Of a DNA stretch of 64,000 nucleotides, positions 38,618 to 42,009 are shown in pieces. The notes under the pieces were generated by a model that searched no databases, was not told where the DNA came from, and saw only the letters and a list, made by a program, of their open reading frames with translations. The DNA lies in contig JACSRE010000437.1 of NCBI GenBank assembly GCA_014879945.1, forward strand, positions 62,001 through 126,000. Reading direction: 5' to 3'. A program made the position numbers and the translations under genes. Origin of the DNA: Myxococcus sp. Lineage in GTDB: Bacteria > Myxococcota > Myxococcia > Myxococcales > Myxococcaceae. How positions within the stretch are numbered: the stretch's first letter is position 1; every line of letters starts with the position of its first letter.

Positions 38618-39217
38618 ATGCAAGCTCCGGTCGACTCGCAGTGCGCGCATCACCCAGGCACGCCGGCCACCGTGGTGTGCGGCCGCTGCGGCACCTTCGT
38701 CTGCGGGGCGTGCACCTCGCCCCAGGGGGAGCCCCTTCGCTGTCAGGCCTGCGCGACGCCGTACATCCCGCGAGGCTCGCGGAGCGCGCGCTTCCTGGCC
38801 AACCTCATCGACACCGCGGTGGTCACGGTGCCGTTCGTCGCGTGCCTGCTGCTGTTCGTCGTCTTCATCGCGGCGCACGATCACAAGGAGCCCTCTGACG
38901 TCGCGGTGGGCCTGGTGGTGCTCGCCTGCTTCGGCGCCGTCGCCGTCGGGCTCGGGCTGCAGGTCGTCATGCAGGTGCGCTTCGGCCAGTCGGTCGGCAA
39001 GCGGCTGCTGAAGCTGAAGGTGGTGCGCAGCGACGGCGCGCCGGTCGAGCTGTGGCGCATCATCGTCTTGCGCAACCTCGCCCTGCAGGCCGCGGCGCAG
39101 CTGTGTGGCCTCGTCGGCATCATCGACGGGCTGATGATCTTCAGCGACGAGATGCGGTGCCTGCACGATCTGATCGCCGACACCGTGGTGGTCGACGTCA
39201 GCGGGCGTGACGCCTAA
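38618..39217 (+). CDS. RDD-family membrane protein with N-terminal Cys/His zinc module
   Basis: A 199-residue product from the ATG at 38618. Residues 1-45 form a B-box-like zinc module (CAHHPGTPATVVCGRCG, then CGACTS, then CQACA). An RDD domain follows with the signature RSARFLANLIDTAVVTVP, two to three membrane helices and GQSVGKRLLKLKVVRSDG. RDD proteins are poorly understood inner-membrane proteins, some linked to Na+/H+ exchange. Its stop overlaps that of the convergent YIP1 gene by 4 bp, and that protein carries a very similar zinc module. Confidence 0.78.
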   Translation: MQAPVDSQCAHHPGTPATVVCGRCGTFVCGACTSPQGEPLRCQACATPYIPRGSRSARFLANLIDTAVVTVPFVACLLLFVVFIAAHDHKEPSDVAVGLVVLACFGAVAVGLGLQVVMQVRFGQSVGKRLLKLKVVRSDGAPVELWRIIVLRNLALQAAAQLCGLVGIIDGLMIFSDEMRCLHDLIADTVVVDVSGRDA

Positions 39218-40032
39218 CGACCCAGCTTGCTGAGCACCGACGCGGCGACGAGGGCGCCGCCGAGGCCGCCGCAGCAGCAGAAGAGCGCGAGCGGCCAGAG
39301 CACCGCGACGATCGCCCGGCCAGTGGTGAGCCGGTGCGAATCACGAATGCCCCACACCTCGAGCACCAGGGTGTAGAGGCCGACCAGGCCGCCGACGACG
39401 GGAATGCCCTGGAGCACGTTGGGGGCCAGCGAGTAGCAGATGGCCCGCAGCGTGGTTCCGAAGGGGCGCTCGGTGCCGCCGACCATGCGCACACCCAGGT
39501 GCGTCAGCCCCGCCGAGATCATCGCGGTCACCGGGAACAACACGACGCCCACCACCCCCAGCCCGACGGCGACGGCGAACGGGTTCTGGAGGAAGAGCTC
39601 GAGGCCTGCCTTCGCGGGGCCGGGCAGCTCCTTCATCGCCGACGTCAGCTCCTTCAGCTGCGCCTGCGTCTGCGCGAGGTTCAAGATGAGGAAGGGGACC
39701 TGCAGGAGCGACGCGGCGCTGGTGATGAGCCAGCCGTAGAGGAACGCGTCCATCGGAGGGCCGTGCGGGTCGAGCTGGCCCCAGAACTTCGCGGGCTCGA
39801 GCACCGTCATGCGCCAGGTCTGCCAGAGCGCCTGCGCCAGCCCCAGCTCGCCCCGGCGCTCCCACGGGGTGGGCGTCGGCGCTCCGCCCGGCAGCCCGGT
39901 GAGCTGCTGACACCCGGGACACTGGCGCTGCCCGCCCGGGTTGCACTCGGCGCAGGTGAAGGCCCCGCAGCGGGGGCAGACCGAGGTGGCGGCGCGATCG
40001 GCGTGAACGGCACACTGCGCGGTGGGCGTCAT
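39214..40032 (-). CDS. YIP1-family membrane protein with N-terminal Cys/His zinc module
   Basis: A 272-residue product. The N-terminal 45 residues are a B-box-like module (CAVHADRAATSVCPRCG, CAECN, CPGCQ) closely resembling that of the convergent RDD protein. Five hydrophobic helices of YIP1-domain type follow (FLYGWLITSAASLLQVPF; AVGLGVVGVVLFPVTAMISA; ICYSLAPNVLQGIPVVGGL). The ATG at 40032 overlaps the stop of the DsbA-like gene by 4 bp (ATGA), so it is translated after that redox protein. Role unknown; membrane organisation or a sensor function is inference. Confidence 0.75.
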   Translation of the reverse strand: MTPTAQCAVHADRAATSVCPRCGAFTCAECNPGGQRQCPGCQQLTGLPGGAPTPTPWERRGELGLAQALWQTWRMTVLEPAKFWGQLDPHGPPMDAFLYGWLITSAASLLQVPFLILNLAQTQAQLKELTSAMKELPGPAKAGLELFLQNPFAVAVGLGVVGVVLFPVTAMISAGLTHLGVRMVGGTERPFGTTLRAICYSLAPNVLQGIPVVGGLVGLYTLVLEVWGIRDSHRLTTGRAIVAVLWPLALFCCCGGLGGALVAASVLSKLGR

Positions 40033-40658
40033 GGGCCCGGCGTCTTACTCCGTGGCGCGTAGCCCAGCTTCTCGAAAGCGTGGGCGAAGACCCTGCCGTC
40101 CTGCGCGCCCTCGATGACGAAGCGGTTGCCGACGATGAAGGTGGGCACCGCGTGCACGCCGAGCTCGTGGGCGGCGTCGAGCCCGGCCTGCATCACGGGC
40201 GCCCAGCGGCCAGACTCGACCTCGCGCTGCAGCTCGGCGCCGTCGAGCCCGGCGTCACCCGCGGCCGCCCGGAGCACCGCGAAGTCGTGCAGATCTTCCC
40301 CCCGCGACCAGTAGCGCTCGAGCAGCGAGTGGTGGAGCGGCTCAAAGGCGCCTTTGGTGCGCGCCCACTCTGCCGCCTGGTGCGCTCTGCGGGTCGACGG
40401 CACCACGGCGCGATCGAGGCGCATGGTGAGCCCCAGGGCGCGCGCGCGCGTCGCCAGCGGGTTGTCGGGGTTCGCGACGAAGGCCTTTACCCGGTCGGGC
40501 AGCGGCAGCCCCTCGTCCGGCGTCTCTGGGCGCAACAGGAAAGGGCGCCAGTCGATGACGAAGTCCCACGCTTCTCTGAGGCGGTCGACCTCGCCGAGGC
40601 CGATGTAGCACCAGGGTCAGACGTAGTCGGACCAGACGGTGACGATGAGTGGGCTCAT
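40029..40658 (-). CDS. DsbA/FrnE-like oxidoreductase with in-frame TGA at the CxxC site (candidate selenoprotein)
   Basis: From the ATG at 40658 the frame reads MSPLIVTVWSDYV, TGA (40617-40619, codon 14), then PWCYIGLGEVDRL and on for 190 more codons without a stop. FrnE-like DsbA proteins have a CPWCYIG active site just here, so the TGA replaces the first catalytic Cys (TGC) and would give UPWC if read as selenocysteine. The rest is intact: WRPFLLRPETPDEGLPLPDR, a helical insert, and the cis-Pro loop GVHAVPTFIVGNRFVIEGAQ. An annotation without Sec would start at a TTG (40535) and lack the active site. A hairpin that could be a SECIS follows the TGA. The alternatives are a nonsense mutation or a sequence error. 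It overlaps the YIP1 gene by 4 bp. Confidence 0.75.
40585..40603 (-). promoter_or_regulatory. candidate bacterial SECIS hairpin
   Basis: On the minus strand, bases 40603-40596 pair with 40592-40585 (8 bp, one G-U) around the 3-base loop 40595-40593. The stem begins 13 nt after the TGA and its loop is 22-24 nt from it, inside the 16-37 nt window known for bacterial SECIS elements. An outer GGTG/CGCC pairing can extend it. The loop sequence is not the E. coli fdhF one, so this is suggestive only. Confidence 0.4.
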
Positions 40659-40747
40659 GAGGGAGGAGGTCTCATTCCGGGGCCCTCGGCGCAAGGCCCG
40701 CACGAATTCTCATGATTGCGTCTGAAACGGCGGCTAGCGTTTTCGCC

Positions 40748-41362
40748 ATGGCCGCCAGGAAGAGCGCGAAGCGGGGCACCGCCCCGAAGGCGAAGTCGAA
40801 GCGGAAGGTCAAAGCGAAGCCGGCGGCGAAGCGGAAGGTGGGGGCGAAGCCGAAGAAGGCCGCCCGCAAGCCCGCCGCGAAGAAGGCGATCGGCAAGAAG
40901 CCGGCGCCGAAGAAGGCGGCCTCGAAGAAGCCTGCGCCGAAGCAGCTCGCGCCCGCGAAGGCCGCGCCGAAGAAGACGTGGCCGAAGGTGACGCTGCCCG
41001 CGCTGCCCGAGATCGAGGGCTACGTCCGCAGCCTGCCGCCCCCCATCGTGCCCATCGTCAACCGGCTGCGCCAGTTGGTGCGCGACGCCGCGCCCGAGGC
41101 GAAGGAGCTGCTCGACCCCAACGGCCCCGTCTACGACGCCAACGGCCTCTTCGCCCGCATCGAGGCGACCGATCGCCAGGTGTTGATCACCTTCCTCAAG
41201 GGCGCCCAGCTCGAGGCCGCCGAGGGCACCTTGTCGGGTGACGGCGCGTCGCGCGCCTTCTCGGTCGCGTCGCTCGATCAGCTCCGCGAGAGCGTGCTCA
41301 AGGGCCTGGTGCGTCAGGCCGTGTTGTTGAACGGGCACGACCCGATCTCTGGCGCGGTGTGA
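40748..41362 (+). CDS. DUF1801 protein with histone-H1-like Lys/Ala-rich tail
   Basis: A 204-residue product from the ATG at 40748. Residues 1-78 are almost entirely Lys, Ala, Pro and Arg in AAKK/PAPKK-type repeats, as in bacterial histone-H1-like proteins that bind DNA. The rest is a DUF1801 (YdhG-like) domain: EGYVRSLPPPIVPIVNRLRQ, LLDPNGPVYDANGLFARIE, ITFLKGAQLEAAEG. Isolated DUF1801 domains are small cytoplasmic proteins of unknown function. The fusion suggests a DNA-associated form. It is divergent from the candidate selenoprotein (89 bp), and its stop overlaps the HAD gene start (TGATG). Confidence 0.7.
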   Translation: MAARKSAKRGTAPKAKSKRKVKAKPAAKRKVGAKPKKAARKPAAKKAIGKKPAPKKAASKKPAPKQLAPAKAAPKKTWPKVTLPALPEIEGYVRSLPPPIVPIVNRLRQLVRDAAPEAKELLDPNGPVYDANGLFARIEATDRQVLITFLKGAQLEAAEGTLSGDGASRAFSVASLDQLRESVLKGLVRQAVLLNGHDPISGAV

Positions 41363-42009
41363 TGCTCCCGTTTCAGGCGGTCATCTTCGATCTCGACGGC
41401 ACGCTCGCCGACTCGCTGCGCGATCTGGGCGAGGCGATGAACCTGGCGCTGGCCGACTTCCAGCTCCCCGGGCACCCCATCGACGCCTACCGCGCCTTCG
41501 TCGGCGAAGGCGTCGACGTGATGGTGCGCCGGGCCGCCACCACCAACCGCGACGTCCCGTGGGACAAGCTCGTCGACCGCTACCGCGAGCGCTACGCCGA
41601 GCTCGACCACCGCTATACCGCGCCGTACCCGGGCATTCCGGAGCTGCTCGATGGGCTGACCGCCGCCGGCATCAAGCTGGCGGTCCTCTCGAACAAACGC
41701 GATGACTTCACGCGACAGTTGGTCGCGAAGCAGTTCTCGCGATGGGAGTTCGTCGACGTGCGCGGGGAGCGGGACGGCGTTCCGCGAAAGCCCGACCCGA
41801 CCGCGGCCTTCGAGCTCGCCTTGGTGCTCAACGTGCTGCCCGCGAACATCGTCTTCGTCGGCGACACCGCGGTCGACGTCAACACCGCCCGGAACGCCGG
41901 CATGCGCAGCGTTGGCTGCCTGTGGGGCTTCCGCGGCAAGGCCGAGCTCGTTCACGCCGGCGCGCGCGATCTGCTGAGCCGCCCGGCCGAGCTGCTGTCG
42001 CTGCGCTGA
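41362..42009 (+). CDS. gph: HAD-superfamily phosphatase, Gph-like
   Basis: A 215-residue hydrolase. Motif I is FDLDGTLADS, motif II LAVLSNKRDD, the catalytic Lys sits in VPRKPDPTAAFELA, and the motif IV acidic pair is VGDTAVDVNTARNAGM. The helical cap follows motif I, as in phosphoglycolate phosphatase. The true substrate is uncertain; Gph-like proteins remove phosphoglycolate or other small phosphoesters. The ATG at 41362 overlaps the DUF1801 stop; a GTG start three bases earlier is possible. It converges with ohr (18-bp gap). Confidence 0.85.
   Translation: MLPFQAVIFDLDGTLADSLRDLGEAMNLALADFQLPGHPIDAYRAFVGEGVDVMVRRAATTNRDVPWDKLVDRYRERYAELDHRYTAPYPGIPELLDGLTAAGIKLAVLSNKRDDFTRQLVAKQFSRWEFVDVRGERDGVPRKPDPTAAFELALVLNVLPANIVFVGDTAVDVNTARNAGMRSVGCLWGFRGKAELVHAGARDLLSRPAELLSLR

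Follow-up and report, generated by a model that had tools for sequence, protein, structure and literature searches.

An in-frame TGA in a DsbA/FrnE-like gene of Myxococcus sp. very probably encodes selenocysteine (Sec), which would make the gene product a DsbA/FrnE-like selenoprotein (the probability of this reading is put at about 0.95). The gene lies in the window, i.e. the whole stretch of 64,000 nucleotides that was analysed, and had been put forward as a candidate selenoprotein gene in an earlier note; this proposal is now supported by the Sec genes of the genome, by homologues in which there is no alternative to Cys or TGA at this site, and by a covarying hairpin.

The reading frame and its internal TGA

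Read on the minus strand, positions 40658 to 40029 form one frame, which starts with the ATG at 40658, continues with MSPLIVTVWSDYV, the sole internal TGA (40619-40617) and PWCYIGLGEVDRL, and closes at the TGA stop 40031-40029 (Table 1). In agreement with the earlier note, this single TGA falls on the codon of the catalytic Cys, i.e. on the residue that opens the active site (UPWC) of a DsbA/FrnE-like thioredoxin fold, and a long open frame follows it, although the length of 190 codons given at that time has to be corrected to 195. The read-through product counts 209 residues with U at position 14, the peptide predicted across the site being VWSDYV-U-PWCYIGLGEVDR. The ATG is located 13 codons upstream of the Sec codon, there is no leader peptide, and Cys17 is the sole Cys of the protein. 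Residues 6-195 of the read-through product match the Pfam DSBA profile with an E-value of 5e-31 over positions 2-190 of 191, and its AlphaFold2 model reaches a mean pLDDT of 95.7. In the cis-Pro loop, which the earlier note had described as intact together with the rest of the fold, P172 and T173 are invariant in the alignment. Further upstream, a CTTGC motif is found at 40695-40691 on the minus strand, about 33 bases before the ATG and with a similar spacing in many relatives; it is possibly a promoter element.

Table 1. Features of the predicted selenoprotein locus, with positions in the window.
Feature	Position	Strand	Evidence
Predicted DsbA/FrnE-like selenoprotein gene	40029..40658, including the stop 40031-40029	-	Frame, Pfam DSBA, AlphaFold2, FrnE fold match, pN/pS
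In-frame TGA, probably read as Sec (U of UPWC)	40617..40619	-	TGA in 7/7 genus genomes and 63/108 order loci
TGC of the putative resolving Cys17 (UPWC)	40608..40610	-	No variation among 31 aligned sequences
cis-Pro codon (Val171-Pro172) of the thioredoxin fold	40143..40145	-	P172 and T173 invariant in the alignment
bSECIS-type hairpin UCGGCCUC-GGC-GAGGUCGA	40585..40603; loop 40595-40593	-	Folding, covariation, TGA-linked retention, frozen codons
Yip1-domain membrane protein gene, downstream neighbour	39214..40032	-	Pfam Yip1 E 5e-11; ATG overlaps the selenoprotein stop (ATGA)

The codon in relatives and the downstream hairpin

Homologues were surveyed in 145 genomes of the order, which yielded 108 loci with a scorable codon at the Sec position. 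This codon is TGA at 63 loci and TGC or TGT at 45, while TAA and TAG are never found, so that the alignment of homologues suggested earlier returns Cys or TGA only. Three groups share the position, namely UPWCY-[IV]-GL, to which the window gene belongs, UPFCF-[IV]-AE...SSLVR and UPWCYLS; the last two (L087-L129 for the former, L107, L114, L116 and L126 for the latter) are additional DsbA-like groups with TGA in the same place.

The predicted SECIS-type hairpin of the window gene has an 8-bp stem that begins 13 bases past the UGA, and its GGC loop lies 21 bases past the UGA. In a set of 22 distinct TGA sequences, which takes in the outlier L086 and the UPWCYLS group, 97.7% of the cells are paired and changes on both sides are seen at six of the eight pairs. 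None of 500 shuffles reached the covariation score, 17 cells being changed on both sides compared to 2.8 in the shuffles, and the covariation was gone when the partner was slid by 1-3 columns (four both-side cells at most). Besides, RNAalifold recovered seven of the eight pairs unaided. Within the subfamily of the window gene, the stem is intact in 35 of 36 TGA members versus 3 of 28 Cys members (Fisher 2e-13, a p-value that overstates independence given that the sequences are related). In the same line, where the amino acid is fixed within the genus, five of six hairpin codons are identical versus 10 of 79 downstream codons (p 0.0005), and the one hairpin codon that varies within the genus is that of the loop. 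Single-sequence folding of the window hairpin gave an energy no better than that of shuffles (z 0.5 to -1.1), and the case for a SECIS element therefore rests on the comparison across relatives.

The same place is occupied by a hairpin made of different bases in the UPWCYLS group, and in the UPFC group another hairpin is seen farther downstream, around GCAGCCUGGUCAGGCUGC. When a SECIS model specific to the subfamily was run against the genome, the window gene scored 66 bits and the next match 22 bits, the latter being partial; no other match had a sensible open UGA frame, but such a narrow model can tell little about other selenoproteins. As a separate observation, the five codons just upstream of the TGA (TGG TCC GAC TAC GTC; 40634-40620, minus strand) show zero synonymous change among six genus sequences, as if RNA constraint extended upstream of the UGA.

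These data bear on the possibility that a shorter protein is made from TTG 40535, the upstream stretch not being translated together with it. A mechanical ORF caller does propose such an ORF (40029-40535, 168 aa) and loses the active site, as had been foreseen for gene callers. This short product is nevertheless very improbable, since the fold, which is modelled in full with the high pLDDT given above, would lose its first strand, its redox motif and helix 1, and since the codons preceding the TGA and those of UPWC are conserved in relatives while the hairpin codons are frozen.

Selenocysteine machinery of the genome

The genome that contains the window (7.72 Mb, 448 contigs, 98.7% complete) was searched for selA, selB, selD and the selC tRNA, and all four were found: SelA with an E-value of 1.4e-143, SelB over its full length with 316 bits, SelD with 383 bits, and one tRNA-Sec with 72.9 bits (Rfam) and the anticodon TCA (ARAGORN). 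All of them are located on contigs other than that of the window. Across the order, the 63 TGA loci all belong to SelA-positive genomes, whereas the seven scored loci of SelA-negative genomes all have Cys (Fisher p 0.0016).

In this context, a reading of the UGA by another tRNA, through Cys or Trp misreading, would also yield the full-length protein, and Cys would even restore a CPWC site. Such a readthrough is highly unlikely, as it leaves unexplained why the hairpin is kept with TGA and has mostly decayed with Cys codons, why TGA is confined to SelA-positive genomes, and why TAG and TAA are never used. With Sec as the preferred reading, SelB together with Sec-tRNA(Sec) would bind the hairpin just past the UGA (40603-40585) and deliver Sec, upon which translation would proceed to the stop codon that begins at 40031. 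The window hairpin is unlike the fdhF element of E. coli in that its stem is without a bulged U and its loop is GGC; recognition by SelB is therefore assumed.

Regarding other potential users of Sec, the active site of SelD is here in the Cys form (locus L010, SNCAGCAAKL), and Cys also occupies the usual Sec site of the only unambiguous formate dehydrogenase alpha subunit (L220, CARV-C-HSPT). The GrdB/PrdB family PF07355 had no match in the window genome, but neither had it one in any control genome, so that this result carries no weight. Since FdhA and SelD, both among the most widespread bacterial selenoproteins, are Cys forms here, it is conceivable, albeit rather doubtful, that the genus keeps its whole Sec apparatus largely for this small cytosolic thiol oxidoreductase. 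If true, selenium use in these myxobacteria would be a matter of thiol redox control rather than of formate metabolism.

Constraint on the gene and exchange of Sec and Cys

Every one of the seven genus genomes, i.e. the window genome and six others, has TGA at this codon, and protein identity to the six others is 65-85%. Downstream of the TGA, pN/pS within the genus ranges from 0.20 to 0.40. The TGA forms of the order remain open for about 185-200 codons after the TGA, and the frameshifts or extra stops in relatives that the earlier note had named as a possible refutation are thus not seen. In a scan of named genomes, the TGA form was present in Archangium violaceum, Corallococcus sicarius and C. 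exercitus, and the Cys form in Myxococcus dinghuensis, C. terminator and C. praedator. Outside the order, Chloroflexota (Anaerolineales, Dehalococcoidia) and an Acidobacteria MAG also have TGA forms with a hairpin in the same place (among L141-L164 and L184). In these Chloroflexota and Acidobacteria MAGs, Cys forms are intermixed, and there the hairpin is weaker or lost. A search of plasmids returned only distant DsbA family proteins with less than 60% identity.

A single base separates TGA from TGC, and the window stems from a draft genome in many contigs. The chance that the TGA arose by faulty sequencing or assembly, or that it is a nonsense mutation of a gene in decay, is nevertheless negligible: independent genomes refute an origin by chance or error, as the codon is likewise TGA in the six other genus genomes, in many more genera and in further phyla, and decay is at odds with the pN/pS values past the TGA and with the lack of any further stop or frameshift.

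In a tree for which the Sec/Cys column had been masked, no fewer than 11 Sec/Cys changes are needed over 90 rows including outgroups; the tree is a rapid one, and many of its branches are weak. Both in Corallococcus and in Myxococcus, Cys clades are nested between Sec forms, and, judging from these sequences, Sec/Cys switches are repeated within Myxococcaceae. The Cys clade of Corallococcus (L078, L079 and L081, the terminator/praedator group) has TGC or TGT and has kept all eight stem pairs, which suggests that Sec gave way to Cys recently and that the SECIS persists as a fossil. Close relatives thereby offer natural replicates of the Sec/Cys exchange, some Cys forms having an intact SECIS, and the benefit of Sec to a thiol oxidoreductase becomes testable in cultivable bacteria.

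Predicted function and neighbouring genes

The product is probably a cytosolic thiol-disulfide oxidoreductase, its location being suggested by the lack of a leader peptide and its role by its likeness to FrnE. In such an enzyme, Sec14 would attack the disulfides of substrates through its selenolate, and the mixed selenenylsulfide formed in this step would be resolved by Cys17.

That the downstream Yip1 gene is coupled to the real stop of the selenoprotein gene, as reported in the earlier note, holds in view of the ATGA overlap. Its use as proof that the gene is intact does not hold to the same extent: the adjacency with the ATGA overlap is kept in only four of the seven genus genomes, the Yip1 gene being nearby in one more, and it is thus weak evidence. 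On the other side, the divergent neighbours at 40712-42009 (plus strand) code for a lysine/alanine-rich protein and a HAD-type phosphatase, and are syntenic in most of the genus as well as in another genus (g4), indicating that the locus is orthologous.

Comparison with known systems

The top fold matches in the PDB are FrnE of Deinococcus radiodurans (5cnw/5co3) and SCO1869 (3gl5). The FrnE of D. radiodurans acts in the cytoplasm as a disulfide reductase/isomerase and contributes to the tolerance of cadmium and diamide (PMC8945050). It is the best match of the window protein both in sequence, with an E-value of 1e-21, and in fold, with an E-value of 1.5e-15 (TM 0.81, about 25% identity). The window protein has the DsbA fold, a CP(W/F)C-type site in which Sec would stand for the first Cys (UPWC instead of the CPWC of FrnE), and presumably a cytoplasmic location. 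It is devoid of the C-terminal extension of D. radiodurans FrnE and hence of the CXXXXC in this extension, which regenerates the active site and which some FrnE proteins are without as well (PMC8945050). Owing to this absence, the window protein is called FrnE-like, with no claim to be FrnE.

The sole NCBIfam match of the window protein is the Rcas_1661 family of thioredoxin-like (seleno)lipoproteins (NF041057, DsbG-like), i.e. thioredoxin-fold selenoproteins that are lipoproteins. This candidate was rejected, since the match is confined to the C-terminal half and scores 28.5 bits where the cut-off is 190. NCBIfam thus has no fitting model for the window protein, which would explain why annotation missed the gene.

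In the literature that was searched, with few subscription journals, no paper lists the subfamily of the window gene for Myxococcus, Corallococcus or Archangium, no paper names FrnE together with selenoproteins and DsbA, and no relevant selenoprotein paper deals with Myxococcota or myxobacteria. DsbA-like selenoproteins as such have a longer record: nine DsbA-like UxxC sequences (COG2761) were described from Sargasso Sea data in 2005, in a study where the bacterial SECIS is characterised as a downstream stem-loop with a small apical loop that holds a G (PMC1088965); one was reported from Anaeromyxobacter dehalogenans in 2006 (PMC1794560); they were counted in 41 organisms in 2016 (PMC5029168); and a 2026 review tabulates a 'DsbA-like protein form 1' (PMC13188914). 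The window subfamily, with UPWCY-[IV]-GL, is distinguished from the UPFCF-[IV]-AE subfamily of the family f3 genomes, which we infer to be Anaeromyxobacter and its relatives.

The window gene is alike to the DsbA-like selenoprotein family (PF01323/COG2761) in its fold family, in a UxxC site with predicted Sec in the first position and in a SECIS-type element located just downstream, and it does not differ from this family in kind: a full-length Pfam DSBA match, a UGA at UxxC, Cys homologues, a SECIS-type stem-loop and selA/selB/selC/selD are all present. Where TGA is taken only as a stop, gene callers shorten this gene or miss it altogether in dozens of genomes of myxobacteria, those of the cultivable Corallococcus and Archangium among them. 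The kind is already known, and the window gene is an unannotated, widespread addition to the DsbA-like UxxC selenoproteins.
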